From IMG/VR virus record IMGVR_UViG_3300044997_000645, positions 1-31,483 of that record: DNA of 31,483 nt; one strand, written 5' to 3'. The stretch's first letter is position 1, and each line of letters starts with the position of its first letter. Made by a program: the position numbers and the translations under genes. The DNA is from a virus. Shown here piece after piece: positions 946 to 31,483 of this stretch. The notes under the pieces were generated by a model that was not told where the DNA came from, did no database searches, and saw nothing but the letters and a program-made list of their open reading frames with translations.

Positions 946-3900
946 ACTCACAAACGGATTAGTAAGTGTTCAAGGCAACATCCACGGTGGTAACGTTGTA
1001 ACCAATAATGTGTTAGCTACAGCTAACTCTACACTGACACTGAGTGCTAGTTCAATCAGCCTGAATCCAGTCAGTAACGTAAGCCTCAACAACCGTTGGA
1101 TTAACAACTTGGCTTATCCTGAGCAATCAAGCGACGCTGCAACAAAACAGTATGTTGACGATCTGGCACAGGGATTGAACATACACGACAGTACCTATGC
1201 AGCCACTGGAAATACTTTGGCCAACATCACTGGCGGTGCGACTACTTACTACAACGGTCCTAACGACAACGGTAGTGGTGCTACTATTACTACAACCACA
1301 AGTTATGGCAACATTGACGGTGTTAACATTGCTATAGCCAACACACGTATTTTGGTGCGTGCTGAAGCCAATGCAGTTTGGAACGGTATCTATGTGTACT
1401 CCAACGCCACAACCCTCACTCGCGCTATAGACTACGACTCAATTCCGGAAGTTGAAGCCGGCGACTTTGTGTATAACTTGTACGGTTACACATACGGCAA
1501 CACTGGCTGGGCACAGACCAGCACGATCAGTAACGTGGGACTGCCTGGCAATAACATTGTATTCACACAGTTTTCGGGCTCTGGTGCCTACACTGGTGGT
1601 AATGCTATATCTTTTGATGGCGTGGTAGTCAACGTTAATGTCGACACAAGTGGTGACAACACCATTGGTATCAACGGCAACAACGAGCTGCACATTCCTG
1701 CTGGTGCTATATTGACTACACCCAACATTGGTGAGGCAACAGGTACCAGCGTTAGTGTTACAGGTGATGTAACCGGTGGTAATTTGCTCACAGCAGGTAC
1801 TGCTAGTGCAACTGGCACAGGTACATTCGGTAATGTGGCCACAGCAGGCACTGTCAGTGCCACAGGTGATGTAACCGGTGGTAATTTGCTCACAGCGGGT
1901 ACTGCTAGTGCAACTGGCACAGGTACATTTGGTAATGTGGCCACAGCAGGCACAGTGAGTGCAACTGGTACAGGTACATTTGGTAATGTTGACACAAGTG
2001 GCACAGTGAGTGCAACTGGCACAGTGACCGGTGGTAATGTGGCCACAGCAGGCACTGTCAGTGCAACTGGCACAGTGACCGGTGGTAATGTTGCCACAGC
2101 AGGCACAGTGAGCGCTACTGGCACAGGTACATTTGGTAATGTGGCCACAGCAGGCACAATGAGTGCCACAGGCACAATCACATCTGCCAACACAATCACA
2201 GGTGGCAACATTGCCACAGCAGGTACTGTCAGTGCCACAGGTGATGTAACCGGTGGCAACATCGTCACGGCAGGTACTGTCAATGCAACTGGCACAGTGA
2301 CCGGTGGTAACGTGGCCACAGCAGGCACAGTGAGCGCTACTGGCACAGGTACATTTGGTAATGTGGCCACAGCAGGTACAGTGAGTGCAACTGGCACAGT
2401 GACCGGTGGTAATGTTGCCACAGCAGGCACAGTGAGTGCAACTGGTACAGGTACATTTGGTAATGTGGCCACAGCAGGCACAGTGAGCGCCACAGGCACA
2501 ATCACATCTGCCAACACAATCACAGGTGGCAACATTGCCACAGCAGGTACTGCTAGTGCAACTGGCACAGGTACATTTGGTAATGTGGCCACAGCAGGCA
2601 CAGTGAGTGCCACAGGTAATATCACTGGTGGCAACATTGCCACAGCAGGTACTGCTAGTGCAACTGGCACAGGTACATTTGGTAATGTGGCCACAGCAGG
2701 CACAGTGAGTGCTACTGGTGATGTAACCGGTGGTAACGTGCTCACAGCAGGTACTGTCAGTGCAACTGGCACAGTGACCGGTGGTAATGTTGCCACAGCA
2801 GGCACTGCTAGTGCAACTGGTACAGGTACATTTGGTAATGTGGCCACAGCAGGCACAATGAGTGCCACAGGTAATATCACTGGTGGCAACATTGCCACAG
2901 CAGGTACTGTCAATGCAACTGGCACAGGTACATTTGGTAATGTGGCCACAGCAGGCACAGTGAGTGCCACAGGTAATATCACTGGTGGCAACATTGCAAC
3001 TGCTGGCACAATGAGTGCCACAGGCACAATCACATCTGCCAACACAATCACAGGTGGCAACATTGCAACTGCTGGTACTGTCAGTGCCACAGGTGATGTA
3101 ACCGGTGGTAACATCGTCACAGCAGGTACTGTAAGTGCTACAAGTAACATCACTGGTGGTAACATTACAACTGCTGGCACATTGAATGGCGGCAATATTG
3201 TGATCAGCAGTGACGACATCACTGATACAAATGGTCGTGTAAACATTAATACAGCGTTGGGCGCAGTGGACTTTGCAGTCAACGGAACAGCTGCCAATGT
3301 GATGTATGTGAATGCCTCAACCAACACAGTGAGTTTTGGTAGTGCAACACAGACTACCAATTCGATTGTGGCGTTTAACTCAAGCAATTCGATCTTGATG
3401 CCAGTTGGTAACACATCACAGCGTCCATCTGGCGTGACAGGTCAGTTCCGTTTCAACACTACAATCAATAGCTTGGAATTGTTTGACAACAATTCCTGGG
3501 TCAGTGTTGGTCAGCCAGACTTTACCTTGATTACAGATCAACAGTTCAGCGGCGACGGCACCACAACTGTGTTTAGTCTAGCAGGCAATGCTACTACAGC
3601 TGGTACAATTGTCAGTATCAACGGTGTGCAACAGTTGCCAGTTACTGCTTATGCGGTGTCAGGGAATGAATTGACATTCACAGAAGCTCCTGTTGCAGGT
3701 GATCAGATTGATGTGCGTGTGTTGGTAACAACTAGTACTGTATACGGCATCAGCAACAGTGATGGCAGCGCTCAGATCTACGTTGAAGACGGCAGTGCAA
3801 CGGTTGCAGTCATTGGCGACCTAAGTGTATCGGGTAACGCAACCTTGAGTGGCAACATTTTGGGTGATCGCATCCAGAATGGTACAACCACCATTGATAT

Positions 3901-4909
3901 TCAAACAGCCAGCGGCAATGCCAACATCACTGTTGGTGCTGTCAGCAACGTGGCTGTGTTTGCAACCACTGGTTTGTTCATTAGCGGCAACATCAACACC
4001 ACAGGCACAATCACATCTGCCAACACAATCACAGGTGGCAACATTGCCACAGCAGGCACAGTGAGCGCAACTGGCACAGTGACCGGTGGTAATGTGGCCA
4101 CAGCAGGCACAGTGAGCGCAACTGGTAATATCACTGGTGGCAATATCAGTACAGCTGGTACAGTGACTGCCACTACACTGAGTGGTTCACACACAGGTTC
4201 AGGTGCTGGCTTGTCAAGTATTACCGGTGCCAATGTCACAGGTACTGTGGCCAATGCCACCAATGCCACCAACGTAACCGGTACCGCTGGCACACTGGGG
4301 TACTCAACTGCCGGAGTAGGCGTTGGCTCCTCCGGTGTTGGCGGCCCGCAAGTGATGGGTAGCACCAGCAATGCAGCTCAACTGACGTTGAAACGAGAAG
4401 GCGCATATTTAATCAACATGGGTCTTGACACCGACAACGTATTCAAAATTGGCGGCGGGAACGACGGAAACAATACGTATCGTTTCCAAGTAAACTCATC
4501 AGGTGTGGCCACAGTTACAGCAACCAGCGCACGTTATGCTGACTTGGCTGAGATGTACGCAGCTGACGCCGAGTACGCTCCTGGCACAGTGGTGTGCTTT
4601 GGCGGTGATCAAGAAGTCACAGTTTGCACTCACGAAAGTGACACTCGTGTGGCAGGTGTTGTTAGTACAAACCCCAGCTACCTTATGAATGCCACACTGG
4701 AAAGCGAGCACGTGGCGGCTGTGGCCCTGACAGGTCGCGTGCCAACTCGTGTGACTGGTCCAGTACGCAAAGGTGACTTGATGGTAAGTGCTGGTAACGG
4801 TGCTGCCAAAGCTGACAACAATGCACGCAACGGTGCGGTAATTGGTAAAGCTCTGGAAAACTTTGACGGTGACCAAGGCACAATCGAAGTTGTGGTTGGT
4901 CGCTTCTAA
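2..4909 (+). CDS. Repetitive tail-fibre-like protein, 5' partial
   Basis: The reading frame is open to the left edge, so the true start lies upstream; at least 1635 residues are visible. Most of it is a degenerate 14-17 residue repeat of the type ATAGTVSATGTVTGGNV, which suggests a long beta-structured fibre shaft. Two unique parts interrupt the repeats. The first (about nt 950-1760) has the phage-fibre motif DAATKQYVDDLAQGLN. The second (about nt 3190-3990) has an FSGDGTTTVFSL...INGVQQLP...AYAVSG module common in fibres of marine T4-like phages. The C-terminus (about nt 4380-4909), with ARYADLAEMYAADAEYAPG, resembles the terminal domain of phage fibre proteins that acts as an intramolecular chaperone or self-cleaving (peptidase G2-like) unit. 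The likely role is host recognition at the tail or baseplate. Fibre identity is family-based inference; the repeat structure is seen directly. Confidence 0.75.
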   Translation, partial: GNVATAGTVSATGNITGGNIATAGTASATGTGTFGNVATAGTVSATGNITGGNIATAGTASATGTGTFGNVATAGTVSATGDVTGGNVLTAGTVNATGTVTGGNIATAGTVSATGTGTFGNVATAGTVSATGNITGGNIATAGTVNATGTVTGGNVATAGTVSATGDVTGGNVLTAGTVSATGTVTGGNVATAGTVSATGTVTGGNIATAGTMSATGTITSANTITGGNIATAGTVSATGDVTGGNIVTAGTVNATGTVTGGNIATAGTASATGTGTFGNVATAGTVSATGTGTFGNVDTSGTVSATGNITGGNVLTNGLVSVQGNIHGGNVVTNNVLATANSTLTLSASSISLNPVSNVSLNNRWINNLAYPEQSSDAATKQYVDDLAQGLNIHDSTYAATGNTLANITGGATTYYNGPNDNGSGATITTTTSYGNIDGVNIAIANTRILVRAEANAVWNGIYVYSNATTLTRAIDYDSIPEVEAGDFVYNLYGYTYGNTGWAQTSTISNVGLPGNNIVFTQFSGSGAYTGGNAISFDGVVVNVNVDTSGDNTIGINGNNELHIPAGAILTTPNIGEATGTSVSVTGDVTGGNLLTAGTASATGTGTFGNVATAGTVSATGDVTGGNLLTAGTASATGTGTFGNVATAGTVSATGTGTFGNVDTSGTVSATGTVTGGNVATAGTVSATGTVTGGNVATAGTVSATGTGTFGNVATAGTMSATGTITSANTITGGNIATAGTVSATGDVTGGNIVTAGTVNATGTVTGGNVATAGTVSATGTGTFGNVATAGTVSATGTVTGGNVATAGTVSATGTGTFGNVATAGTVSATGTITSANTITGGNIATAGTASATGTGTFGNVATAGTVSATGNITGGNIATAGTASATGTGTFGNVATAGTVSATGDVTGGNVLTAGTVSATGTVTGGNVATAGTASATGTGTFGNVATAGTMSATGNITGGNIATAGTVNATGTGTFGNVATAGTVSATGNITGGNIATAGTMSATGTITSANTITGGNIATAGTVSATGDVTGGNIVTAGTVSATSNITGGNITTAGTLNGGNIVISSDDITDTNGRVNINTALGAVDFAVNGTAANVMYVNASTNTVSFGSATQTTNSIVAFNSSNSILMPVGNTSQRPSGVTGQFRFNTTINSLELFDNNSWVSVGQPDFTLITDQQFSGDGTTTVFSLAGNATTAGTIVSINGVQQLPVTAYAVSGNELTFTEAPVAGDQIDVRVLVTTSTVYGISNSDGSAQIYVEDGSATVAVIGDLSVSGNATLSGNILGDRIQNGTTTIDIQTASGNANITVGAVSNVAVFATTGLFISGNINTTGTITSANTITGGNIATAGTVSATGTVTGGNVATAGTVSATGNITGGNISTAGTVTATTLSGSHTGSGAGLSSITGANVTGTVANATNATNVTGTAGTLGYSTAGVGVGSSGVGGPQVMGSTSNAAQLTLKREGAYLINMGLDTDNVFKIGGGNDGNNTYRFQVNSSGVATVTATSARYADLAEMYAADAEYAPGTVVCFGGDQEVTVCTHESDTRVAGVVSTNPSYLMNATLESEHVAAVALTGRVPTRVTGPVRKGDLMVSAGNGAAKADNNARNGAVIGKALENFDGDQGTIEVVVGRF
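1755..3190 (+). repeat. Coding tandem repeat array, block 2 of the fibre gene
   Basis: The same module set as block 1 is repeated here in a different order, still in frame. The segment encoding GTMSATGTITSANTITGGN occurs in both blocks and again near nt 4000. High identity between copies means assembly may have collapsed or expanded the array. Confidence 0.9.
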
Positions 4910-11436: not shown

Positions 11437-11541
11437 TTGTGTAGTTTTCTAACCGGTCATCATGCATACATTAGAAGATTGCTGTAGACATATTCACATG
11501 CTTTGAGAAACTTTAAAACATTTAAACGTAAAAGAAATCAA

Positions 11542-12189
11542 GTGAAAGTATTGGTCAACGGATGCAGCCATATGGCCGGCACTGAATTGAATGCCAGCGC
11601 CAAAGTTGCAAGAACAATGACTTGGCCAAACTTAATCAATGATTGGGCCAGTGTGGTTAATATTTCTATTGCTGCATCTAGCAATGATTCGATATGTCGT
11701 AGAACAATTTTAGAACTTGACAAAAACAATTATGATTTTGTATATGTTCAGTGGACTCACTTTGATCGTATCGAACTCCAGATACCTTTTTACAAAGATC
11801 AAGGCGCTAAACACGAGTGGTTTTGTATCAACAGCGGAAATGCAGTTGACAAGAGCGATCTCAATGGCAATTCAGACTTAATATTTGACATCGCTCGTAG
11901 TGTTTTTTTAAAACAATTCAATAACACCTGGTTTGACAACTTTAATATTGCACAAATGGCAGTGTTACAAACCTATCTAAAAAATCGCAATATACCCTAT
12001 CAATTTGGGTTTGTATTAGGTGAAGAGTACTGCCGAGTAAAAGAAAGCTCTCTTATCGATGTAGATCGTGTTGTTGATCTTGCTTGGATTGATTTTTGCA
12101 ACAAACATAGGTTTCAACGACTAATAGCTCACTATGGACGTGATGCACATGAAGCCTACGCTCAACGTATCACTTTACTAAGGAATTAA
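11542..12189 (+). CDS. SGNH/GDSL-type hydrolase-like protein
   Basis: The N-terminus VKVLVNGCSHMAGTE carries the block I nucleophile motif (Ser9, in NGCSH). ASSNDSICRR fits block II, and YVQWTHFDRIE fits the third block. Near the C-terminus, YGRDAHEAYAQRI offers the Asp and His of the catalytic set. Relatives occur in aquatic T4-like phages, often annotated SGNH hydrolases, acting as esterases or acetylhydrolases on sugars or lipids; the substrate here is unknown. I prefer the GTG at 11542, which gives MKVLVNGCS as is usual for the family; a TTG at 11503 would add 13 basic residues. The gene looks AT-richer than its neighbours and lies between gene 13 and a broken copy of part of gene 13, which suggests acquisition by recombination. 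Confidence 0.75.
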   Translation: MKVLVNGCSHMAGTELNASAKVARTMTWPNLINDWASVVNISIAASSNDSICRRTILELDKNNYDFVYVQWTHFDRIELQIPFYKDQGAKHEWFCINSGNAVDKSDLNGNSDLIFDIARSVFLKQFNNTWFDNFNIAQMAVLQTYLKNRNIPYQFGFVLGEEYCRVKESSLIDVDRVVDLAWIDFCNKHRFQRLIAHYGRDAHEAYAQRITLLRN

Positions 12190-20209: not shown

Positions 20210-20818
20210 ATGAAAAATTTTCAACAATACCTGGCCGAAAGCGAACGAACCTACACTTACCGAATCAAAATTGTAGGTGATGTTGCACCTGATTTTATTC
20301 GCCAGTTGGAAGAAAAACTTAAACAGTTTGACATTGTAAAAATCAGCCGGCCAAAGACCACTCCGGTCCAACTCAAACCAGCTGATTTCCCCAAGCACAG
20401 CAACGACAGTGTGACCAGTATGGATGTGGAATTTCGCTACCCGGCTATAGAGCCACAGATCAAAGAAATTGCTCGGCTGTTGTTGTTGGATCCAAACAGA
20501 ATCATCATGTTGACCACGCCGCATGAAAACAGCCTGGATACCGAACGTGAAAAAATTGAAGACCAAAACAAAGATCTGTTGACCAACACTGATTATCCTG
20601 TTCCTGACACAGAACAAACGGCTCTGAGCAAGGATTACTCAGCTCCATACAATCAACATGCGGTATTAAAAAATGCCTATCGCAGTGACTTTACTGTGGC
20701 CGGTGGTAAAACTCCGCCGGCCAAAACAACAAACGACTTGCCAATGGGCACAACCAGCCCGATGACCAAAACAAAACGCCCACCACGTCCGTCGACCGGC
20801 GCACAACCTCAAGGATAA
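20210..20818 (+). CDS. Probable head-associated protein with capsid-targeting N-terminus
   Basis: The N-terminus MKNFQQYLAES resembles the capsid-targeting sequence of T4 internal head proteins (MKTYQEFIAEA). The LAE|S step fits the T4 prohead protease consensus (L/I)-x-E. The following 90 residues, TYRIKIVGDVAPDFIRQLEE, FDIVKISRPKTTPVQ and SMDVEFRYPAIEPQIKEIAR, alternate strands and helices like a small ferredoxin-type fold. The last 90 residues are polar and proline-rich, probably disordered. Similar proteins stand near terminase genes in aquatic T4-like phages, without a proven role. Packing in the head and cleavage by a gp21-type protease are inference. It has its own late promoter. Length is 202 aa. 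Confidence 0.8.
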   Translation: MKNFQQYLAESERTYTYRIKIVGDVAPDFIRQLEEKLKQFDIVKISRPKTTPVQLKPADFPKHSNDSVTSMDVEFRYPAIEPQIKEIARLLLLDPNRIIMLTTPHENSLDTEREKIEDQNKDLLTNTDYPVPDTEQTALSKDYSAPYNQHAVLKNAYRSDFTVAGGKTPPAKTTNDLPMGTTSPMTKTKRPPRPSTGAQPQG

Positions 20819-23148: not shown

Positions 23149-23532
23149 ATGCGGGCCAACGAGTTTGTTGCCGAAGATCGCAAAGGTAAAATTCCTGGTG
23201 GCTATGACAATGCTATGCCCGGTGCCCATTGTATGCGAGACAACGGTGGATATGATCGTCTCAATCATTTGAATCGTATGATGATGGCAGCAGCCTGCCA
23301 TGATGGCAAAAGCAAAAAATCTGTGCCTACTGATAAAATGGATCCTGCAAGTTGGGTAGAAAAATACAACACAGCACATCCATATACACAAGAAGAAAAC
23401 AACATGATCCACGGTGCTATGAAAACAATTGGTGCCGAAAGCCATCATGTTGTTTCTGATCATCGCAGTATAGAAACTCCAGACACACATAAAATTAGTC
23501 CAATCAAAGGTTTCAAAGGTTATGGCAGATGA
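23149..23532 (+). CDS. Small protein with MRANEFVAE head and FKGYGR tail
   Basis: I do not recognise a named family. This 127-residue protein begins MRANEFVAED and ends ISPIKGFKGYGR. Its middle is rich in Met, His and Asn (NRMMMAAACHDG) and is otherwise hydrophilic. The next gene starts MRAREFVTEQ and ends ISPVKPFKGYDR but has a quite different middle, so the two share both end tags. The N-terminal tag resembles the T4 capsid-targeting sequence with a V-x-E cleavage step. GGAG lies 9 nt upstream. Its stop codon overlaps the next start (ATGA at 23529), showing translational coupling. A virion role is likely but inferred. Confidence 0.75.
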   Translation: MRANEFVAEDRKGKIPGGYDNAMPGAHCMRDNGGYDRLNHLNRMMMAAACHDGKSKKSVPTDKMDPASWVEKYNTAHPYTQEENNMIHGAMKTIGAESHHVVSDHRSIETPDTHKISPIKGFKGYGR

Positions 23533-23915
23533 GAGCCCGCGAGTTTGTAACTGAACAACGTAAGCTACCGCCAGAGCTGGCCGACCCCCTACGTTATACC
23601 TACATCCTGCCTGGACTCAGTGCCGCAGATCCTTATCGCAATTATCGATTTGGGGTAGCCATGGCCCGTGCCAGAAGCGACGCCGGAGCCGACGGTATAA
23701 ACACAAATTTTCCAGAGTGGACGCCAGAAACAGAATTTGGCGAACAAGGCGTTGTTGTAGGTATGAATAACAATATCAAAAAGGTAATTGACAAGGCCTT
23801 GGCAATGACAAAAACACCAGGCGGCAAAAAGTTGGTCAGCACTGCCGATAGTGTAGAGCCCGAGTTTGTTGATATCATAAGCCCAGTTAAACCATTCAAA
23901 GGATATGATAGATAA
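23529..23915 (+). CDS. Small protein with MRAREFVTE head and FKGYDR tail
   Basis: This 128-residue protein is almost the same length as its upstream neighbour and shares its two end tags: MRAREFVTEQ at the start, ISPVKPFKGYDR at the end. The middle differs: RYTYILPGLSAADPYRNYRF then GVAMARARSDAGADG, a segment often seen in small proteins of aquatic T4-like phages (from memory, not checked). A lysine-rich helix (NNNIKKVIDKALAMTKTPGG) precedes the tail. It overlaps the previous gene by 4 nt, and its TAA shares one base with the next ATG (TAATG). I infer that the tags serve targeting or processing; the function of the centre is unknown. Confidence 0.75.
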   Translation: MRAREFVTEQRKLPPELADPLRYTYILPGLSAADPYRNYRFGVAMARARSDAGADGINTNFPEWTPETEFGEQGVVVGMNNNIKKVIDKALAMTKTPGGKKLVSTADSVEPEFVDIISPVKPFKGYDR

Positions 23916-24012: not shown

Positions 24013-24726
24013 ATGAAACGAATCGTATTAGCATTGTTATTGGTGCCATTGGCTGCATGGGCACAAATCAATACGCAATGCCCACAATTTACAGCAAACG
24101 GCACACCACAGTATCAGGCACTGCCCGGTGATCAAGAGTTGTGTAAGACCAACTACGCAGTGATCCACCGGTGTAGTGTCAAAGCTCCAGTGGCAGTGTT
24201 TGAGCATTTAACTGTGGCCGCAATGACAGGCCCTGCTCGACGCAAAGACAATTTCCGTCCTGATCCAGCAGTTAATCCAGGATGCGGTGCCACGTTGGCT
24301 GACTATGCTACTGTAGGTCGAACGCACGATCGCGGGCACATGTCACCAGCAGGCAACAATACACAGAATGATGACATCATGTCAGAGTCGTTCTTTTTAA
24401 GCAACATGGTTGCTCAAGTGGCCAACAACAATCGTGGTGCATGGCGTTTATTAGAAGCTGCAGAACGCCAATGGGCTATGCAACCAGGAACAGATTTCTA
24501 TATTATTTCAGGCGGCATCTACGATCCTGGTCATCCAGTAACCGGTAATGGATTAGGTATTCCTACTCGTTTATATAAAATTATTATCGAAAAGAATAGC
24601 CGTCGAGTACAAGCATACATAATGCCTAATGCAAATATCAACCCGGCCACTGATTGGCCCAATTACCAAACTACTATGTCAGAAGTTGAACGTGCAACCG
24701 GTATGAGTTTTAATTTAGGGCCATGA
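24013..24726 (+). CDS. Secreted non-specific DNA/RNA endonuclease (NUC1 family)
   Basis: The first 18 residues (MKRIVLALLLVPLAAWAQ) are a typical signal peptide, with likely cleavage after AWA, so the mature enzyme would be periplasmic or secreted. The active-site motif D106-R-G-H-M of the beta-beta-alpha metal family (Serratia nuclease, PF01223) lies in VGRTHDRGHMSPAGNN. It is followed by the conserved SESFFLSNMVAQ and NNNRGAWRLLE region holding the metal-binding Asn. Cysteines C23, C44, C54 and C91 could form disulphides, fitting export. Length (237 aa) is normal for the family. It sits in a coupled run of tiny phage genes; its stop overlaps the next start. A phage gene for an exported nuclease is unusual; destroying competing phage DNA or free host DNA are possible roles. 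Confidence 0.92.
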   Translation: MKRIVLALLLVPLAAWAQINTQCPQFTANGTPQYQALPGDQELCKTNYAVIHRCSVKAPVAVFEHLTVAAMTGPARRKDNFRPDPAVNPGCGATLADYATVGRTHDRGHMSPAGNNTQNDDIMSESFFLSNMVAQVANNNRGAWRLLEAAERQWAMQPGTDFYIISGGIYDPGHPVTGNGLGIPTRLYKIIIEKNSRRVQAYIMPNANINPATDWPNYQTTMSEVERATGMSFNLGP

Positions 24727-24917
24727 GATTTCAAGAATTTGGCAAGGGTGTATATTCCAAGTCAAAATTAAAACCCTTCAAAGGCAGCAACATATCAAAA
24801 ACCGGCACACACGTGGCCCGTTTTCAACGCAAAAAAGATATTCAGCCCGGCACAGACCGCTGGTTCCGGTTATGGTTTGCCAAACCTTATCTCACCGGCG
24901 AAAACCCCTATAAGTAA
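24723..24917 (+). CDS. Small basic protein before the radical SAM gene
   Basis: The 64-residue protein begins MRFQEFGKGVYSKSK, has a KLKPFKGSN segment near residue 17, and ends LTGENPYK. It is strongly basic and has no cysteine. FGKGVY also occurs in the large charged protein (near nt 22376), and KPFKG recalls the tails of the genes at 23149 and 23529. It overlaps the nuclease stop by 4 nt (ATGA), and the radical SAM start follows 3 nt after its own stop. It is therefore a candidate partner or substrate of that enzyme, though a virion role is equally possible. Confidence 0.75.
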   Translation: MRFQEFGKGVYSKSKLKPFKGSNISKTGTHVARFQRKKDIQPGTDRWFRLWFAKPYLTGENPYK

Positions 24918-24920
24918 GGT

Positions 24921-26045
24921 ATGAGCAGTTTCTTTTGTGCGGCTCCCTGGCGGGGCTTGCACATTAATCCACAAGGCAGTGTCAAAACTTGTTGTGCCGG
25001 TGATCCTCACATGTTAGGGAGTTTGGATTCTCAAACCATTGAGGAAATTCTGCACGGACCTGTTATGCAACAAGTCAGGCAAACACTACGCCAAGGGCAA
25101 CCACACCCTAGATATTGCCACAATTGTGTGCAGGCCGAACGTTATGGAACCAGTGAACGCAACTGGCACAATCAGATCAATCCAGGATTTGATGCAGGCC
25201 AAGCCACAGACACAGAACACTATCCGGTGTTGATTGATATACGATGGAACACTACTTGTAATTTTAGTTGTAACTACTGTAACGAACATAGCAGTAGCCA
25301 ATGGGCCAGTCTAAAGAAACTATCAGTTCAATCTGGCACCAGGCCTTACTATGAACAGGTGTGCAACTACATAGAGCAACACCAACAACACATAAAAAAA
25401 GTAGCGTTGATTGGTGGCGAACCGTTATTGCTCAAAGAAAACGAACGGCTGCTGGAAGTTATGCCTGCACACTGTCGGGTAGATGTTATAACCAATTTGG
25501 GTGTGGATCTAGAAAACAATCGTATATTTAAAAAATTGTCCGAACGAAACAACGTGGGTTGGAACGTTAGCTTGGACAACACTGGAGATCGATTTGAGTA
25601 TGTGAGATACGGCGGAAGCTGGTCTCAGATTGAAAGCAACATTGCCAAAATTAAATCTTGTGCTGGCCATCGAGTGGGCATACATCCACTATATAACATT
25701 TACAACGCTACCAGATTAACAGACTTGATTGTATGGGCTCAGCAACAGGATATCTCTTTGCATTGGCAAAATCTTTATCACCCTGCATACTTGGATCCTT
25801 TGCAGTTAAGCACAGAAATACAACAACTGGCATTGAAAGAATTGAGATCGGTCTTGTCAAGACACGATTTGGAGTATACTCAACGCAAGTTTTTTCAAGA
25901 AACTGAAATGAGTTATATCAAAGCACCGCCGGCATCCTTGACTGAAGAATTAATCAACCACATAGGTCAAATTGAAAGTAAATACCATTCTGAGTCTCGA
26001 GGACAGTTTCGACAATTGTGGCCCGAACTAGCGAGCATACTATGA
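24921..26045 (+). CDS. Radical SAM protein with N-terminal SPASM/twitch-like cluster
   Basis: The motif C113-x3-C117-x2-C120 (TCNFSCNYCNEH) binds the 4Fe-4S cluster that cleaves S-adenosylmethionine; GGEPLLL near 165 is the SAM-binding loop. Ahead of it lies a cysteine region: C6 in FFCAAPW, C24/C25 in INPQGSVKTCCAG, and C66-x2-C69 in YCHNCVQAE. This resembles the auxiliary-cluster (twitch/SPASM) domain that in most enzymes follows the core, so the layout is permuted. Such phage proteins are often named twitch domain radical SAM proteins; their substrates are not known to me. The family generally modifies peptides, proteins or sugars. Its stop overlaps the gp17 start (ATGA), and it follows a 64-aa gene by 3 nt. 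Length is 374 aa. A second copy of this layout starts at 31085. Confidence 0.88.
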   Translation: MSSFFCAAPWRGLHINPQGSVKTCCAGDPHMLGSLDSQTIEEILHGPVMQQVRQTLRQGQPHPRYCHNCVQAERYGTSERNWHNQINPGFDAGQATDTEHYPVLIDIRWNTTCNFSCNYCNEHSSSQWASLKKLSVQSGTRPYYEQVCNYIEQHQQHIKKVALIGGEPLLLKENERLLEVMPAHCRVDVITNLGVDLENNRIFKKLSERNNVGWNVSLDNTGDRFEYVRYGGSWSQIESNIAKIKSCAGHRVGIHPLYNIYNATRLTDLIVWAQQQDISLHWQNLYHPAYLDPLQLSTEIQQLALKELRSVLSRHDLEYTQRKFFQETEMSYIKAPPASLTEELINHIGQIESKYHSESRGQFRQLWPELASIL

Positions 26046-27607
26046 GTCAAGATGAATCAACGCTGGTCAAAGCGCCGTATCGTAAGCAATACTGGACTGA
26101 TGAACAGCTAGAAGAATTTTTAAAATGTGCGGATCCTATAACAGGTCCTGAATATTTTATGGATAATTTCTTTTATATCCAGCATCCCACCAAGGGTAAG
26201 ATGTTGTATCATCCCTTTGATTATCAAAAGCGATTGATACACGCCTATCACAACTACAGATATAGCATATCGATGATGCCGCGACAAACTGGTAAGTCAA
26301 CCAGTGCCGCAGGATACTTGTTGTGGGTGGCCATGTTTAGACCAGACTCAACTATCTTGATTGCTGCACACAAATACACTGGTTCTCAAGAGATCATGCA
26401 ACGTATTCGCTATGCGTATGAGTTGTGTCCAGATCATATACGTGCTGGTGTCACCAGCTACAACAAAGGCAATTTGGATTTTGAAAACGGCTCACGTATA
26501 GTTTCGGCCACAACAACTGAAAATACCGGTCGTGGTATGAGTATATCCTTACTATACTGTGACGAATTTGCGTTCGTTCGACCCGGCATTGCCAAAGAGT
26601 TTTGGACTAGTATCGGTCCTACACTAGCAACTGGTGGTAAAGCAATTATTACAAGCACACCAAACAGTGACGAAGATCAATTTGCGCTGTTGTGGAAAGG
26701 TGCCAACAAGTGTGAAGATAGTTACGGCAACCCAACTGACATAGGCATCAACGGATTCAAAGCCTATCGCAGCTATTGGAACGAACATCCAGATCGTGAT
26801 GAAAAGTGGGCCGCTGAACAACGGGCACAACTGGGTGAAGATCGTTTTCGTAGAGAAATGGGTTGCGAATTCATCATCAACGACGAAACACTGATTGCTC
26901 CGGCCAAGCTGTTGGATTTACAAGGACATGAACCCTTGTATAAGACTGGGCAGGTTCGCTGGTACCAGAGCCCCAGAGCAGGTCGCACCTACGTAGTTGG
27001 TTTGGATCCTAGCTTAGGCACTGGTGGTGATCCCAGTGCTATCCAGGTGTTTGAAGCCGAAACCACAGAACAAGTAGCCGAATGGCGTCATAATCGCACT
27101 GCTATTCCGGAACAGATTCGTATACTGGCCGGCATTTGCGCCCACATTAACGAAACAGTTCGGGATCCACAGCGAATCTACTACAGTATAGAAAACAACA
27201 CCATCGGTGAAGCTGCCTTGATCAGTATTGCCGAATACGGCGAAGAAAACATACAGGGCTATTTCCTGAGTGATTTGCATCATGGTGGAAATCGTAGATA
27301 TCGCAAAGGCTTCAATACTACACAGAAACCCAAGCTGGCTGCTTGCAACAAGTTGAAAATCTTGATTGAGTCCGCTCGTATGAAAATACGCAGCCCAAGC
27401 CTGGTCAGCGAACTAAAAACTTTTATAGCTACCGGTGTGAGTTATGCGGCCAAACAGGGTGAAACTGACGACCTAGTTATGGCAACAATTTTAGTCGTGC
27501 GCATGCTGCAATTGCTACAAACCTATGACAACACCATAGATATCCAGCTGCGAGACCATGGCGACAACATAATTCCGCCCATGCCGTTCATCAGCGTACG
27601 GCGCTAA
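26042..27607 (+). CDS. 17: Terminase large subunit, gp17-like
   Basis: gp17 is the motor ATPase and nuclease that pumps DNA into the prohead. Walker A is PRQTGKST (about 80-87), Walker B ISLLYCDEF (about 168-176, Asp174/Glu175), and the coupling motif is IITSTPN. The C-terminal nuclease domain shows VVGLDPSLGTGGD (first catalytic Asp), YSIENNTIGE (Glu), and GETDDLVMAT (last Asp). The protein has 521 aa, shorter than T4 gp17 (610) mainly at the N-terminus. ATG 26042 overlaps the radical SAM stop by 4 nt; a GTG at 26018 is less likely. Gene 16 lies far upstream, separated by an accessory block. The late promoter for the next gene covers this stop codon. Confidence 0.96.
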   Translation: MSQDESTLVKAPYRKQYWTDEQLEEFLKCADPITGPEYFMDNFFYIQHPTKGKMLYHPFDYQKRLIHAYHNYRYSISMMPRQTGKSTSAAGYLLWVAMFRPDSTILIAAHKYTGSQEIMQRIRYAYELCPDHIRAGVTSYNKGNLDFENGSRIVSATTTENTGRGMSISLLYCDEFAFVRPGIAKEFWTSIGPTLATGGKAIITSTPNSDEDQFALLWKGANKCEDSYGNPTDIGINGFKAYRSYWNEHPDRDEKWAAEQRAQLGEDRFRREMGCEFIINDETLIAPAKLLDLQGHEPLYKTGQVRWYQSPRAGRTYVVGLDPSLGTGGDPSAIQVFEAETTEQVAEWRHNRTAIPEQIRILAGICAHINETVRDPQRIYYSIENNTIGEAALISIAEYGEENIQGYFLSDLHHGGNRRYRKGFNTTQKPKLAACNKLKILIESARMKIRSPSLVSELKTFIATGVSYAAKQGETDDLVMATILVVRMLQLLQTYDNTIDIQLRDHGDNIIPPMPFISVRR

Positions 27608-27610
27608 ATA
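27603..27610 (+). promoter_or_regulatory. T4-type late promoter overlapping the gene 17 stop (GCTAAATA)
   Basis: GCTAAATA contains the TAA stop of gene 17 and ends 7 nt before the ATG at 27618. It repeats the stop-overlap design seen at 20184. Confidence 0.55.
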
Positions 27611-27617
27611 CACCACT

Positions 27618-29276
27618 ATGGCAGATATTACACCCGCTCGAAAATTGTTTGATTTACTGGTCAGTAGAGATTTTGACCCAGAAATGCTGGACAGTTCCGG
27701 CAAGCCTGCCACTGATCCGGCAGAAACTGAAATTTACAGTTTTGCCTTCCGTGCCCGTTCTGGCAAAGACTACGGCACAGTGGTGATCATGCTGTCCAAC
27801 AACAATGAACTTGAAGTTTATTGCAGTGACAATGTAGGCCGCGGCATGGAGGATAACGACAAAAACGACTGGTTCGCTTTCTTAGAACAGTTGAAAAATT
27901 TTGCTGTTAGAAACTTCCTGAGCTTTGGCATCAAAAATTTGAATCGTTTGCGCTACAGCATGCAAGGGCAAGCTGCCATACGAGAAGGCCTGCTCGAATC
28001 CTGGACTGGTAACCGAACAACCAGCTGGAACGGTGCCGCAACTGAAGCACGACTGATGATTCGTCATAAAAAGAACATTGCCGAAGGCGATGCCCGTTTT
28101 CGTTACATTGAAAGCCTGTTTATTGAAACAGCCGACGGCGAGAGATACAAGTTACCATTCAAGAGCTTGACCGGTGGCCGTGCCATGCTGGAACATGTGC
28201 GCTCAGGAGGACGCCCTTATGATATCAGAGGCAATCACATCAGCGAAATGGTCACAGAATTGGCCGTACTGAGTCGTTTCCGCAGAGCCAATCAAGGTCA
28301 GATCTTTGAGGGCGACACCCAACAACTGTTGGAACAAGTGACTGAATATCAATCAAACTTGCAACGCAGTCTCAAAAGTCTCAGTACCCGCACCGGATAC
28401 AGCACCTATTTTGAATCCTGGAGTCCAGCTGATGTTTCAGAACAGGATGCAGTGATTGAAAGTTTAAAAAATCTTTTTGTCAAGCAGAGTATTGACACAA
28501 GAATCGAGTCGGCACTACCCCTGCTGGCCAAAATACAACAACAAGGAACAGCAATGAAAGAAGCCGACATATTTGAATCCTGGGCCAATCGCCTGATAGA
28601 GGGTACCTGGGCCTTGCCCGACACACCAGAAAAACAAAGCCAACTGATCGAACTACTGAGCACAAATTTGCCAGTGGGAGCCGATGCTACCAATGCTACC
28701 GAACAACTGTATGACCTGGTGGGCGATGATCACCTGTTTGATCAATTGTTGAACTTGGCCGATACAGACGCCAATGCTGATGCTCGTCAAGTTGTGATTG
28801 ATCGCTTGCAAGAACTCAGTAAATTCCCTGAAGTGCGTCAGGTGTTGGATCAGTTGCAGGTCGATACCACAGCTGAAACGAATCCACCCGAAGCAACCAA
28901 CCCGGCGGATCTTGAATCCAATTCGAGTGTGGCAGGTGGGCTAGCCGGTGGCAAAATTGGAGACAAACTGAGCGGTAAAGAAGAAACTGACGAGGCAATT
29001 GATCCTACAAATCCTAGGGATTATGAAATCCCAACCATCCAACGTCGAGCACAAGGCCAAGCGCCGTTGACCCCTCAAGACATTGAACAAAAAGATCGCA
29101 AACATGAATTTGATTTCTATCAACGTGCTCACGGTAAGCCGCACCCAGATTCTGTAACCGACAAATCCCAGTCGCCTCTAGCTGGTCAATACGGTCATTC
29201 AGGCCGGATGAACGAAGTTGGCAAAAACACCAGCTTTTTGGATCGTTTGAAAGAACTTTCTGGAATGAAGAAGTAA
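27618..29276 (+). CDS. Large unknown protein of aquatic T4-like phages, 552 aa
   Basis: I have no proven function for this protein. The N-terminal half (about 1-260) looks folded: MADITPARKLFDLLVSRDFD, then FAFRARSGKDYGTVVIMLSN, FLSFGIKNLNRLRYSMQGQA and LMIRHKKNIAEGDARFRYIE with ...ETADGERYKLPFK. A middle helical part includes ADIFESWANRLIEGTWALPD (about 315-334) and a segment with LPVGADATNATEQLYDLVGD. The last 130 residues are polar and probably disordered, ending LDRLKELSGMKK. Similar helical segments occur in large hypothetical proteins of pelagiphages and cyanophages (from memory). The late promoter at 27603 suggests a virion protein. It is the last gene before gp32, which has its own promoters. 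Confidence 0.82.
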   Translation: MADITPARKLFDLLVSRDFDPEMLDSSGKPATDPAETEIYSFAFRARSGKDYGTVVIMLSNNNELEVYCSDNVGRGMEDNDKNDWFAFLEQLKNFAVRNFLSFGIKNLNRLRYSMQGQAAIREGLLESWTGNRTTSWNGAATEARLMIRHKKNIAEGDARFRYIESLFIETADGERYKLPFKSLTGGRAMLEHVRSGGRPYDIRGNHISEMVTELAVLSRFRRANQGQIFEGDTQQLLEQVTEYQSNLQRSLKSLSTRTGYSTYFESWSPADVSEQDAVIESLKNLFVKQSIDTRIESALPLLAKIQQQGTAMKEADIFESWANRLIEGTWALPDTPEKQSQLIELLSTNLPVGADATNATEQLYDLVGDDHLFDQLLNLADTDANADARQVVIDRLQELSKFPEVRQVLDQLQVDTTAETNPPEATNPADLESNSSVAGGLAGGKIGDKLSGKEETDEAIDPTNPRDYEIPTIQRRAQGQAPLTPQDIEQKDRKHEFDFYQRAHGKPHPDSVTDKSQSPLAGQYGHSGRMNEVGKNTSFLDRLKELSGMKK

Positions 29277-29301
29277 AATCACATTCTGAGCAACTGTGCC
29301 A

Positions 29302-29309
29302 TATAAATA
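29302..29309 (+). promoter_or_regulatory. T4 late promoter, exact consensus TATAAATA, before gene 32
   Basis: TATAAATA matches the T4 late consensus fully. Here it lies just upstream of a sigma70-like promoter, so gene 32 could be transcribed both early and late, as gene 32 of T4 is from several promoters. Confidence 0.75.
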
Positions 29310-29312
29310 CTA

Positions 29313-29341
29313 TTGACGCTACTCAAACCAGCGTGTATACT
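29313..29341 (+). promoter_or_regulatory. Sigma70-type promoter for gene 32
   Basis: TTGACG (29313-29318), 17-nt spacer, TATACT (29336-29341). Both boxes match the host consensus at five of six positions. The start would fall near 29349, giving a leader of about 93 nt. Confidence 0.8.
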
Positions 29342-29385
29342 TGTAAAAGTGTATGCGCTTTTTTGTCAGCATCACAGGCAACGTA

Positions 29386-29435
29386 ACATCTAAACATTTA
29401 GATAGGCAACACATAGTAAACTTTAGAAAGGCAAC
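29386..29435 (+). promoter_or_regulatory. Tandem-repeat leader of gene 32, possible autoregulatory site
   Basis: Two adjoining 25-nt copies (29386-29410 and 29411-29435) agree at 19 of 25 positions and both end AGGCAAC. A third AGGCAAC lies at 29376. The first copy holds the palindrome ATCTAAACATTTAGAT (29388-29403). The last AAAGG serves as ribosome site for ATG 29442. T4 gp32 represses its own translation by binding its leader RNA; an equivalent here is inference. Confidence 0.55.
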
Positions 29436-29441
29436 TTAACT

Positions 29442-30437
29442 ATGGCATCATTGGCAGAAATTCGCGCAAGACTGGCCGCCAGCGAATCCAAACAAGGCGG
29501 AAACTCCACAAGCGGTGACAATTCAATTTATCCTCATTGGAATCTTGAGGAGGGGCAATCATGCACTTTACGATTCCTGCCAGACGGCAACACCAAAAAC
29601 ACATTCTTTTGGCAAGAACGAGCCATGATTCGGTTGCCATTCAATGGCATCAAGGGTGAACTGGAATCCAAACAGGTGTATACGCAAATTCCCTGTATGG
29701 AAATGTGGGGCGACACTTGCCCGGTGCTGACCGAAGTTCGCACTTGGTTCAAAGACAAGAGCCTGGAAGAAATGGGTCGTAAGTATTGGAAAAAGCGCAG
29801 CTACATTTTCCAAGGCTTTGTGCGTGAAAATTCCTTGGCCGACGACAAGACTCCGGAAAATCCAATCCGTAGATTCATCATTGGTCCTCAGATCTTTACC
29901 ACCATCAAAGGTGCGTTGATGGATCCTGAATTGGAAGAATTGCCAACGGACTATCTGCGTGGCCTGGACTTCCGTATCAGCAAATCCTCCAAAGGTGGCT
30001 TTGCTGACTACAACGGATCCAAGTGGGCTAGAAAAGAAACAGCACTGACCGAAGCCGAACAGGCGGCCATTGAGAAATACGGACTGGTTGACTTGAGCAC
30101 ATTCATGCCCAAGAAGCCAACGGATGTTGAACTCAAGGTCATCAAAGAAATGTTTGAAGCCAGTGTGGATGGTCAAAGCTATGACACAGAACGTTGGGGT
30201 CAATATTTCCGTCCAGCAGGTGTGTCGGCACCAGCAGGCAGTTCTACACCTGCAGCAATGGTGGTTGACGGTCATGAAGATGCTCGTCAAGCAACTGCCA
30301 AAACTGCACCAGCAGTGGCCGACAACTTTGATGATGAAGACAAACCAGCGGTGTCCAAACCAGCGGTGTCCAAACCAGCAACTAGTGACAAAGCGCAAGA
30401 CATCTTGGCAATGATCAGGGCTCGTCAAAAAACCTAA
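29442..30437 (+). CDS. 32: Single-stranded DNA-binding protein, gp32-like
   Basis: gp32 coats single-stranded DNA during replication, recombination and repair. The start MASLAEIRARLAA corresponds to the basic cooperative-binding (LAST-type) N-terminus. The core follows with IYPHWNLEEGQSCTLRFLPD, FFWQERAMIRLPF, PCMEMWGDTCP (remnant of the zinc subdomain), KKRSYIFQGFV and RRFIIGPQIFTTIKGAL, all as in gp32 of T4-like aquatic phages. The C-terminus has an acidic DNFDDEDK and then an unusual repeat KPAVSKPAVSKPATS before DILAMIRARQKT. Length is 331 aa (T4: 301). T4 gp32 binds zinc through one His and three Cys; fewer cysteines are visible here, so zinc binding may be lost. Gene order: 4 nt to the sulfotransferase-like gene. 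Confidence 0.96.
   Translation: MASLAEIRARLAASESKQGGNSTSGDNSIYPHWNLEEGQSCTLRFLPDGNTKNTFFWQERAMIRLPFNGIKGELESKQVYTQIPCMEMWGDTCPVLTEVRTWFKDKSLEEMGRKYWKKRSYIFQGFVRENSLADDKTPENPIRRFIIGPQIFTTIKGALMDPELEELPTDYLRGLDFRISKSSKGGFADYNGSKWARKETALTEAEQAAIEKYGLVDLSTFMPKKPTDVELKVIKEMFEASVDGQSYDTERWGQYFRPAGVSAPAGSSTPAAMVVDGHEDARQATAKTAPAVADNFDDEDKPAVSKPAVSKPATSDKAQDILAMIRARQKT
30342..30380 (+). repeat. 15-bp tandem repeat in the gp32 tail linker
   Basis: AAACCAGCGGTGTCC occurs twice in a row (30342-30356, 30357-30371), with a partial third unit AAACCAGC. It encodes KPAVS-KPAVS-KPATS. Exact copies suggest recent slippage lengthening the linker to the C-terminal tail. Confidence 0.9.
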
Positions 30438-30440
30438 CAA

Positions 30441-31103
30441 ATGTTATCGCAGTTAGATCACATTTTGTTTCCAGACCGCTGTGAGGTACTAGAAGTAGTA
30501 CCCTCACAGCGGTATGTCTATCCTATATTTAAAAATGGACATAGTAGTTTTTTGGCATTGAGAAAAAGAAACAATCTTAAACTGTTAATTAATCAACAGA
30601 TTTTGAAAATTCACAGTATTGACGTTGTGATACGAGATCCAAAAGATCGATTGGTGTCGGGTATCAACACATTTATTCAATTCATACTCAGAGATAATCC
30701 GTATCTCGATCGGTCTACAGTCCAATGGTTTGCTCAAAATTATTTGTATTTGAATCGTCATTATTGTTCGCAATTCAATTGGTTGCTAAATTTAGCAAGA
30801 TACACAACAACAGACACCAAGTTGAATTTTCTATCAATGAACGATATTGGTGTCATAACATCAGGGATCGATCGAAAACCAGCTGGCATAGAAATTGCAT
30901 CAAAAGAGTTAACACAACAGATACAACAAATAAAAAATAACGAAATGTATCAGCGCATAGACACAGTGATATTTGAATCAATTGGTCAATCCATGACATT
31001 TCATCAATTGCTGCAACAGATCAAACGAGTCGAACCCGCAGCACATGAATATGTAATTGGACACGCACAAAAAATTTTAAAACCATGTACTGTCCTAGAC
31101 TAG
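30441..31103 (+). CDS. Sulfotransferase-like protein
   Basis: Sulfotransferases move sulfate from PAPS to sugars, lipids or proteins. The 220-residue protein has YPIFKNGHSSFLALR (K31-N-G-H-S-S36), the position and form of the 5'-phosphosulfate loop of the sulfotransferase 2/Stf0-like group. It also has VVIRDPKDRLVSGINTFI (R65-S73), the usual RDP-x(2)-R-x(2)-SG 3'-phosphate loop. The remaining sequence is helical and otherwise unfamiliar. Similar small proteins are seen in aquatic phages, but activity is unproven. It looks AT-richer than its neighbours. It starts 3 nt after gp32 and overlaps the second radical SAM gene by 19 nt, so the two may act in one modification path. A strong hairpin lies within codons 12-24. 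Confidence 0.75.
   Translation: MLSQLDHILFPDRCEVLEVVPSQRYVYPIFKNGHSSFLALRKRNNLKLLINQQILKIHSIDVVIRDPKDRLVSGINTFIQFILRDNPYLDRSTVQWFAQNYLYLNRHYCSQFNWLLNLARYTTTDTKLNFLSMNDIGVITSGIDRKPAGIEIASKELTQQIQQIKNNEMYQRIDTVIFESIGQSMTFHQLLQQIKRVEPAAHEYVIGHAQKILKPCTVLD
30476..30512 (+). other. Strong RNA hairpin inside the 5' end of the sulfotransferase gene
   Basis: CCGCTGTGAGGTACTA (30476-30491) pairs with TAGTACCCTCACAGCGG (30496-30512), giving 16 pairs with one bulged C and loop GAAG. No T run follows, so it is not a standard terminator. It lies 39 nt after the gp32 stop and 33 nt after the sulfotransferase start codon. It may protect the gp32 mRNA end or limit translation of the genes behind it. Confidence 0.8.
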
Positions 31104-31483
31104 ACCATTTTGTTCGTTTCAATTCCAACGGCACTGTCAGTCCTTGCGGGCACATGGTCAATGCCCCGCAATTTGCCACGTTGGATGAAATGGAGGCCAG
31201 TCAATGGAAGTCTGAGGCCAAAGAAAAAATCAGCAACAATGAATGGCCCGCTGAGTGCAGTCGATGTCAAGAAACAGAACCCAACAGCATTCGAGTTTAC
31301 GCTACAAAATTACATAACCGAACCACGCAGACAGATTATTTACAAGTGGGGGGTGTATTGGACAATTTGTGTAATGCTGCTTGCCAGACCTGTAACGAAA
31401 ACTTGAGCACCAGGATAGGCAGTTTACAAGGTCAAGTATTTCCGGTGGTCAACAATCTTGATCGATTTTGGCAATTACCACAA
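31085..31483 (+). CDS. Second radical SAM protein, 3' partial
   Basis: The frame from ATG 31085 is open to the window edge (133 codons). It begins MYCPRLDHFVRFNSNGTVSP and has C3, C21 (SPCGHM) and C58-x2-C61 (ECSRCQETE), then LCNAACQTCNENLS near residue 99: the C-x3-C-x2-C that binds the radical SAM iron-sulfur cluster. This is the same order as in the gene at 24921 (auxiliary cysteines first, core motif second), so the two are distant paralogues. It overlaps the sulfotransferase-like gene by 19 nt, indicating coupling. Whether it also has the SAM-binding GGE loop cannot be seen because the window ends. The substrate is unknown. Confidence 0.82.
   Translation, partial: MYCPRLDHFVRFNSNGTVSPCGHMVNAPQFATLDEMEASQWKSEAKEKISNNEWPAECSRCQETEPNSIRVYATKLHNRTTQTDYLQVGGVLDNLCNAACQTCNENLSTRIGSLQGQVFPVVNNLDRFWQLPQ

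Follow-up and report, generated by a model that had tools for sequence, protein, structure and literature searches.

A sulfotransferase-like gene and N-terminal-twitch radical SAM genes form a cassette between gp32 and uvsX in T4-like phages

What does a phage do with several radical SAM enzymes whose auxiliary cysteines stand ahead of the catalytic core, and which gene is their constant partner? The window studied here, the whole 31,483-bp IMG/VR fragment IMGVR_UViG_3300044997_000645, comes from a freshwater T4-like phage and covers portions of two accessory insertions. An initial annotation had recognised two such proteins in it, and had noted that they bracket the terminase, a 552-aa protein and gp32. 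The contig ends within the second radical SAM gene; an overlapping contig, L009 (3,639 bp in common, 99.95% identity, 2 mismatches), supplies the full gene, followed by an SDR gene and a third radical SAM gene ahead of uvsX. The features are as follows.

24921..26045, + strand: rSAM1, N-terminal-twitch radical SAM enzyme, 374 aa (NF033640, Pfam, Cys/GGEP positions)
26042..27607, + strand: terL, terminase large subunit (Terminase_6N, phrog_36964); backbone gene, 5' end overlapped by rSAM1
29442..30437, + strand: gp32-type ssDNA-binding protein (phrog_1192, E 3.8e-70); backbone gene outside the cassette, left flank of the insertion site
30441..31103, + strand: ST, sulfotransferase-like, 220 aa (fold model, invariant residues, weak Pfam matches, 71/71 co-occurrence)
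31085..31483, + strand: rSAM2, short N-terminal-twitch radical SAM enzyme, first 133 of 291 aa, the rest cut off by the contig end
L009 3241-4116, cassette continuing beyond the window: complete copy of rSAM2
L009 4113-4658, beyond the window: SDR
L009 4655-5809, beyond the window: rSAM3, N-terminal-twitch enzyme like rSAM1
L009 from 5812, beyond the window: uvsX, right of rSAM3

Both proteins of the window indeed place auxiliary cysteines (6/24/(25)/66/69 in rSAM1, 3/21/58/61 in the rSAM2 fragment) before those of the CxxxCxxC core (113/117/120 and 96/100/103, respectively; GGEP at 165 in rSAM1), and rSAM3, past the contig end, brings the extended segment to three permuted enzymes. Among the 194 proteins with 200 or more residues encoded in the window and in two large relatives, 11 show the permuted pattern, each of them a radical SAM protein by HMM; the pattern is found in none of 200 shuffled sets. 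The reversal of the usual SPASM order is thus real. It is not exceptional, and we rejected it as a novelty: twitch before core is the defining trait of a known family, NCBIfam NF033640 (N_Twi_rSAM, twitch domain-containing radical SAM protein). Taking membership as a score of at least the curated 170 bits over the full model, rSAM1 (231.7 bits) and rSAM3 (240.7 bits) both belong to it, with the N-terminal twitch followed by the core. Pfam assigns SPASM to residues 6-69 and Radical_SAM to residues 111-248 of rSAM1, and PF04055 lies above its cut-off in rSAM1 and rSAM3.

The auxiliary domain has the twitch arrangement, C-x(n)-G-x4-C followed by CxxC with four ligands, in which C6, G19, C24, C66 and C69 are invariant; CxxxCxxC and GGEP are likewise invariant in 50 rSAM2 rows and 10 N_Twi rows. 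A characterised counterpart is the twitch domain of BtrN, a 2-deoxy-scyllo-inosamine dehydrogenase (PDB 4m7s/4m7t) whose single auxiliary [4Fe-4S] cluster is fully ligated (PMC6231123). The two domains align with an E-value of 0.001, or 2e-7 with a whole-family profile, and the four cluster cysteines match Cys169/187/232/235 of BtrN. However, the twitch domain is C-terminal in BtrN and N-terminal in the phage enzymes. For N_Twi_rSAM, a curated family, we found neither a solved structure nor a characterised substrate. Production of viperin-like antiviral or anti-competitor nucleotides, hinted at by weak matches of PADLOC pVip models to the radical SAM core, has hardly any credibility here: only the common core is matched, at ~22-39 bits, where many SAM families score equally; the viperin NCBIfam model gives rSAM1 38.7 bits, below its curated 180; and rSAM1, rSAM2 and rSAM3 all bear the N-terminal twitch domain that viperin lacks.

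The initial annotation had left the complete rSAM2 to be checked for loss of SAM-binding or cysteine residues. None is lost: in the 291-aa protein every motif is intact (GGEP at 143-146), and C3, C21, C58, C61, C96, C100, C103 and GGEP are invariant across 50 aligned relatives. It nevertheless differs from NF033640 members in ending early, near position 335 of the 398 in the profile, without ~60 C-terminal positions; it scores 127.4 bits (L009) and at most 148.5 bits in relatives (127-148 bits overall), below the 170-bit cut-off, and is found only paired with ST. We therefore class rSAM2 as a shorter relative, N_Twi-like only, whose chemistry could differ. Close rSAM2 relatives in bacterial genomes were sought as well, and none was confirmed among 41 pattern matches. 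Isolate phages gave only ~21-25% matches to rSAM1 and rSAM2, in 250-kb Vibrio phages, and no relative of rSAM3; no rSAM1 relative was found in plasmids.

Each radical SAM gene of the window is coupled to a neighbour, as first proposed: rSAM1 and terL share 4 nt (ATGA, 26042-26045), while ST begins 3 nt past the gp32 stop and ends 19 nt inside rSAM2, which starts at 31085. The terminase gene, the gene of the 552-aa protein and gp32 belong to the colinear core backbone of the phage, and the empty sites led us to reject them as functional partners. An N_Twi gene adjoins terL in 13 of 38 loci and is absent nearby in 10; at the gp32-uvsX junction, 28 of 101 loci are empty. rSAM1 is a separate variable-site gene of the N_Twi family outside the ST cassette. 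The earlier proposal of a shared chemical modification survives in one half: the gene group is consistent with a modification, but a common substrate for rSAM1 and rSAM2 is not supported.

The constant partner that neighbour analysis was expected to reveal is ST, an ORF (30441-31103) left unnamed by the initial annotation. It lies upstream of rSAM2 in 71 of 71 loci and never occurs without it; SDR and rSAM3 follow the pair in 55 of 58 loci, with fixed gene overlaps (14/20, 4 and 4 nt). ST-rSAM2-SDR-rSAM3 is a four-gene cassette inserted between gp32 and uvsX. Among the 101 junctions sampled by gp32/uvsX, 18 hold the full cassette, 4 hold ST-rSAM2, and those that are neither cassette-bearing nor empty hold other cargo, which by eye includes formyltransferase, hexapeptide acetyltransferase, 2OG-oxygenase, SGNH and sulfotransferase-like genes. 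The rSAM genes are under strong purifying selection (dN/dS ~0.08): median dN/dS is 0.087 for rSAM2, 0.078 for rSAM3 and 0.087 for SDR, against 0.205 for ST and 0.130 for gp32.

Co-location with gp32 and uvsX might suggest modification of DNA, nucleotides or tRNA, the cassette lying within a run of replication genes. T4 glucosylates its own DNA, and the enzymes weakly match QueE and MoaA models. But insertions at the gp32-uvsX junction vary: 28/101 loci have nothing there and unrelated enzymes are frequent occupants, so that location says little about function. Nor do the bacterial N_Twi relatives have genes for nucleic-acid modification close by; we consider this reading improbable. DNA hypermodification through a pyrimidine hydroxymethylase was rejected separately, as no PF00303 (thymidylate-synthase-fold) protein occurs in seven large relatives, one of 300 kb, in records that may be incomplete. 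No tRNA genes were found in the window.

A RiPP-like role, in which the radical SAM enzymes would act on a ribosomal peptide or a virion protein, fits the fact that most SPASM/twitch enzymes of known function modify peptides or proteins. There is also weak likeness to SkfB and several RiPP-maturase NCBIfam models, Asp/Arg-hydroxylase-like ORFs lie in or near some cassettes, and upstream of rSAM1 the window has a 64-aa ORF whose N-terminus is CTS-like. This ORF, however, is not tied to rSAM1: it was matched only in the window (own copy L001), L065 and L085, and in L065 it stands without rSAM1. The cassette junctions overlap or span few nucleotides and thus leave no room for a precursor gene, and none was found beside the cassette enzymes. 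An RRE-like domain is absent from the Pfam and NCBIfam results and, as described below, the bacterial N_Twi relatives sit among polysaccharide genes. A peptide or protein substrate therefore seems unlikely, though it is the best placed of the alternatives.

For ST, a structure was predicted with a pLDDT of 91. Sulfotransferases fill the top 31 VIA-align rows for this model, yet the best Z is only 5.8, and the best Foldseek E-value, 0.09, is a weak match. Pfam yields weak Sulfotransfer_2/1 matches, the best (E 0.007, Sulfotransfer_2) in 6 of 46 family members; ST of the window falls below the Sulfotransfer gathering score. K31, R65 and S73 are invariant in the ST family alignment; we take K31 to be the PSB-loop lysine, and R65 and S73, 8 residues apart as in SULT, to be the arginine and serine of the 3'-PB motif. 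The best structural matches are heparan sulfate 3-O-sulfotransferases (Sulfotransfer_2, PDB 3bd9), which share these PSB-like and 3'-phosphate-binding features; ST differs in being short, ~10% identical and below Pfam cut-offs. The modelled fold appears sulfotransferase-like, and the activity is putative.

Further indications come from relatives of N_Twi, a domain that is rare among bacteria. In four of the five bacterial N_Twi genomes sampled, the gene lies among polysaccharide genes (L325 and L327 by Pfam; L326 and L331 partly by eye, with glycosyltransferases and epimerases); the fifth, G719, has none nearby. In L325, tandem N_Twi copies scoring 300+ bits occur in an O-antigen export cluster, with the domain fused to a Wzt ATPase and the carbohydrate-binding Wzt_C, beside an ABC-2 permease, RmlD, WbsX and TylF. 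It is the same domain as in the phage enzymes, which by contrast stand alone. In L327, N_Twi is fused to a methyltransferase, and WbsX, TylF and exporter-like genes accompany it. Among phages, Vibrio phage K566 shows the gene orders rSAM-GT8-rSAM-rSAM-GT4 and rSAM-GT8, and the large relative G002 has a GT8 gene at 114.6 kb with GT- and FkbM-like ORFs, identified partly by eye. The cassette itself is devoid of glycosyltransferase genes, and the literature searched yielded no link between N_Twi rSAM and O-antigen.

Substrates of SPASM/twitch enzymes include peptides, sugars and nucleotides. We propose, with a probability of roughly 0.6, that the cassette performs glycan tailoring, probably on the host surface polysaccharide. 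From family, motifs, cassette constancy, selection, fold and polysaccharide association, all computed, we infer the substrate, the order of steps, their place at the host surface and their purpose. At the core [4Fe-4S] cluster the radical SAM enzymes would split SAM, and they would abstract a hydrogen atom from a sugar of the surface glycan or of an activated precursor. In line with the proposal for BtrN, the lone N-terminal twitch cluster would accept the second electron, making the net step an oxidation or a related C-H change. SDR would reduce or epimerise the oxidised centre, and ST would move sulfate from PAPS onto the sugar. Expression alongside gp32 and uvsX would put these events in early to mid infection, a timing that suits a change of host polysaccharide, for superinfection exclusion or masking, more than a late modification of virions.

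The same glycan chemistry could instead be aimed at tail fibre or head glycans. T4-like phages have long fibre proteins, the window encodes a repetitive protein (2-4909) at least 1,635 aa long, and in pelagimyophages glycan genes cluster with fibres (PMC7029224). Yet the spacing predicts co-expression with gp32/uvsX, not with late genes, and in bacteria the relatives are found beside genes for O-antigen export, which makes a virion target distinctly less probable than the host surface. A glycan target, host or virion, is favoured over the virion proteins or competitor molecules initially suggested.

More tentatively, and with the odds against it, ST and rSAM2 may be an obligate unit that, extended by SDR and rSAM3, places on the host surface polysaccharide, during infection, a new sulfated sugar made by radical chemistry: a phage serotype conversion of a radical SAM kind. 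If so, it would differ from the conversions by glycosyltransferase and acetyltransferase known to date. For N_Twi_rSAM, a testable hypothesis of glycan tailoring emerges from the BtrN-like twitch and the obligate ST partner taken together with the Wzt fusion and the polysaccharide neighbourhoods. If this hypothesis holds, radical chemistry and sulfation would be tools with which phages rewrite bacterial surfaces, and loci that naturally have or lack the cassette at a single defined site offer a comparison ready for use.

Two phage systems come close. In pelagimyophages, radical SAM cassettes are variable cargo beside GT8 glycosyltransferases in the host-recognition cluster, and O-chain modification has been proposed; the site and hosts differ from ours, and the available part of that paper does not describe an obligate sulfotransferase partner (PMC7029224). 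The marine T4-like phage TARA_ERS488813_N000010, also large, has 12 radical SAM genes and an A-type carrier, with its own Fe-S assembly genes (PMC5332604); the N_Twi family, the conserved ST-rSAM2 pair and the gp32-uvsX site are not resolved there, and the host here is likely a freshwater one.

That host probably belongs to the Burkholderiales. The host family was rejected as the source of the genes (N_Twi above the cut-off in 1 of 300 genomes). The hint to the host is a single transferred gene, located in a relative and not in the window: IscU/IscA genes are present in phage relatives, and the IscU of one of them is 89% identical to that of freshwater Burkholderiales.

The window, an IMG/VR record of 31,483 bp, comes from a T4-like phage with colinear core genes: terminase and gp32, followed by uvsX and a clamp-loader-like gene on contigs that overlap the window. 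The initial annotation had described two radical SAM proteins with auxiliary cysteines placed before the core, each translationally coupled to a neighbour; both traits are seen in the window:

24921-26045: rSAM1, four auxiliary-cluster cysteines ahead of the CxxxCxxC core
31085-31483: rSAM2, truncated by the window end, four auxiliary-cluster cysteines ahead of the CxxxCxxC core

An ATGA overlap joins rSAM1 to terL, and 19 nt are shared between rSAM2 and the 220-aa ORF of ST, a sulfotransferase-like protein. Directly upstream of the rSAM1 site lies a gene for a secreted-looking DNA/RNA non-specific endonuclease (24013-24726; Endonuclease_NS, phrog_14168), retained in many relatives.

The permuted cysteine pattern occurs in 11 of 194 long proteins (at least 200 aa) from the window and two large relatives, all 11 being radical SAM by HMM, and is absent from every shuffled set. 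The reversed order is thus real in both proteins, but it is an already known architecture, since the N_Twi_rSAM family (N_Twi, NF033640; cut-off 170 bits) covers rSAM1 (231.7 bits) and rSAM3 (240.7 bits), a third enzyme with an N-terminal twitch domain. rSAM2 scores 127-148 bits, below the cut-off, and ends about 60 profile positions early.

The sole solved match of the N-terminal domain profile is BtrN (E 0.001), where the alignment spans the C-terminal twitch domain, including cysteines 169, 187, 232 and 235; the four cysteines of BtrN fully ligate a [4Fe-4S] cluster (PMC6231123). The twitch domain is C-terminal in BtrN, whereas it is N-terminal in the phage enzymes. The predicted rSAM2 model (pLDDT 83, poor near the core loop) best matches radical SAM barrels, NifB and MoaA. 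Similarity to viperin, which would suggest an enzyme of that type, is confined to the core.

With two mismatches in 3,639 bp, contig L009 overlaps the window end and completes the locus in this order:

rSAM2, full length, 291 aa
SDR, 181 aa
rSAM3, 384 aa
uvsX, beginning 2 nt after rSAM3

Full-length rSAM2 has lost neither cysteines nor SAM motif: GGEP and all seven cluster cysteines are invariant across 50 aligned sequences (67-83% identity to the L009 protein).

The survey for a constant partner of rSAM2 returned ST, directly upstream in 71/71 non-identical loci with enough flank; no ST without rSAM2 occurred among the loci examined. SDR and rSAM3 follow in 55 of 58 such loci. Overlaps are nearly fixed (ST/rSAM2 -14 or -20 nt; rSAM2/SDR -4 in 65/72; SDR/rSAM3 -4 in 56/68), and in most loci gp32 and uvsX flank the cassette at 3 and 2 nt. 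Median pairwise dN/dS is 0.087 for rSAM2 and SDR, 0.078 for rSAM3 and 0.205 for ST, compared with 0.130 and 0.053 for the flanking gp32 and uvsX. The cassette is real, conserved and selected, and built on a known enzyme family; no earlier description of the ST-rSAM2-SDR-rSAM3 arrangement was found in the literature searched.

Because these loci had mostly been fetched using rSAM2, the site was resampled by gp32 and uvsX. Among 101 loci with both genes, the cassette is complete in 18 and limited to ST-rSAM2 in 4, a different N_Twi gene sits in 1, and 28 are empty (junction about 60 bp), the remainder carrying other cargo; the two sets of counts are not fully independent, as both queries returned some of the same contigs. 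By eye, this cargo includes ORFs of N_Twi-type and B12-type radical SAM, sulfotransferase-like, SGNH, 2OG-oxygenase, formyltransferase, hexapeptide acetyltransferase, desaturase and AMP-ligase-like proteins. Across a large group of uncultivated phages, the junction (L106-L235) is a hotspot where genes for small-molecule or glycan-type enzymes are inserted. An SGNH-hydrolase-like protein (GCSHMAGTELN) at window 11503-12189, without Pfam or PHROG matches, resembles ORFs among the alternative cargo. Gene location had been the main support for DNA hypermodification; at so variable a site it counts for less, and no pyrimidine hydroxymethylase was found in seven large relatives searched.

No Pfam match above threshold was found for ST, and 6 of 46 relatives weakly match Sulfotransfer_2. 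Its predicted model is good (pLDDT 91): the top three Foldseek hits are sulfotransferases, with insignificant E values, and sulfotransferases also fill the first 31 VIA-align rows, with 3-O-sulfotransferases at the top (Z 5.8). K31, R65 and S73 are invariant, and their placement resembles that of the PSB-loop lysine (K31) and the 3'-phosphate-binding Arg/Ser pair (R65/S73). ST is sulfotransferase-like, and we infer the corresponding activity.

Few of the Proteobacteria sampled have N_Twi genes (2/398, 1/300 over the cut-off, 1/369 and 2/385), and the context of these genes was drawn from five genomes. In L325 they stand in tandem, one fused with a Wzt ATPase and Wzt_C, beside ABC-2 permease, RmlD, WbsX and TylF; in L327 an N_Twi-methyltransferase fusion accompanies TylF, WbsX and exporter-like genes. 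In L326 N_Twi adjoins two ORFs, one GT2-like and one glycosyltransferase-like but lacking a Pfam match, near an epimerase-like ORF; in L331 it is accompanied, by eye, by GT2-like, epimerase-like and methyltransferase-like ORFs; L329 has no glycan genes around it. In Vibrio phage K566 GT8 and GT4-like genes are interspersed among four radical SAM genes (of the two for which an NF033640 score was taken, one is above the cut-off and one just under), and in the large relative G002 GT8, GT-like and FkbM-like ORFs lie directly beyond uvsX. Such guilt by association suggests a substrate class, not a single molecule. Glycan tailoring is the best-supported cassette role, at a probability slightly under 60%, with the host surface the likelier target and virion glycosylation possible. 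RiPP-type action of the radical SAM enzymes would be another reading, but a precursor gene is missing.

Earlier publications describe marine T4-like phages that combine up to 12 radical SAM genes with genes for Fe-S assembly (PMC5332604), and pelagimyophage radical SAM cassettes that lie with GT8 genes in host-recognition clusters (PMC7029224). Here, two cassette-bearing contigs of about 148 kb have 8-9 Radical_SAM matches apiece and 9-10 to NF033640 (strong in 4/9 and 8/10); a 300-kb relative has seven strong N_Twi matches and a 152-kb relative none. Radical-SAM-like HMM matches are interrupted by stops at G002 111837-112979 and G001 29705-30220, so some copies in these phages may be decayed, misassembled or over-extended matches. 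Fe-S assembly genes were located as follows:

L089 19106-19800 (G001 39106-39803): phage IscU and IscA-type genes
G002 144367-145060, in L103: IscU/IscA-type pair, by eye only

Next to the G001 pair is a radical SAM gene of non-twitch type (38127-39044). The IscU of the phage shares 89% identity with that of freshwater Burkholderiales, a hint from sequence that these may be hosts; the closest relatives of phage UvsX are in jumbo phages (65-69%).

Four small to mid-size window ORFs (20210-20818, 23149-23532, 23529-23915 and 24723-24917) share an N-terminus (MKNFQQYLAESE, MRANEFVAED, MRAREFVTEQ and MRFQEFGKG), which we take to resemble the T4 capsid-targeting sequence; owing to this likeness they may be internal head proteins. 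At window 2-4909 (+) and in the antisense frame, a fibre-like protein at least 1,635 aa long consists of GNVATAGTVSATG-type repeats, similar to those in G001 at 116487-117542.
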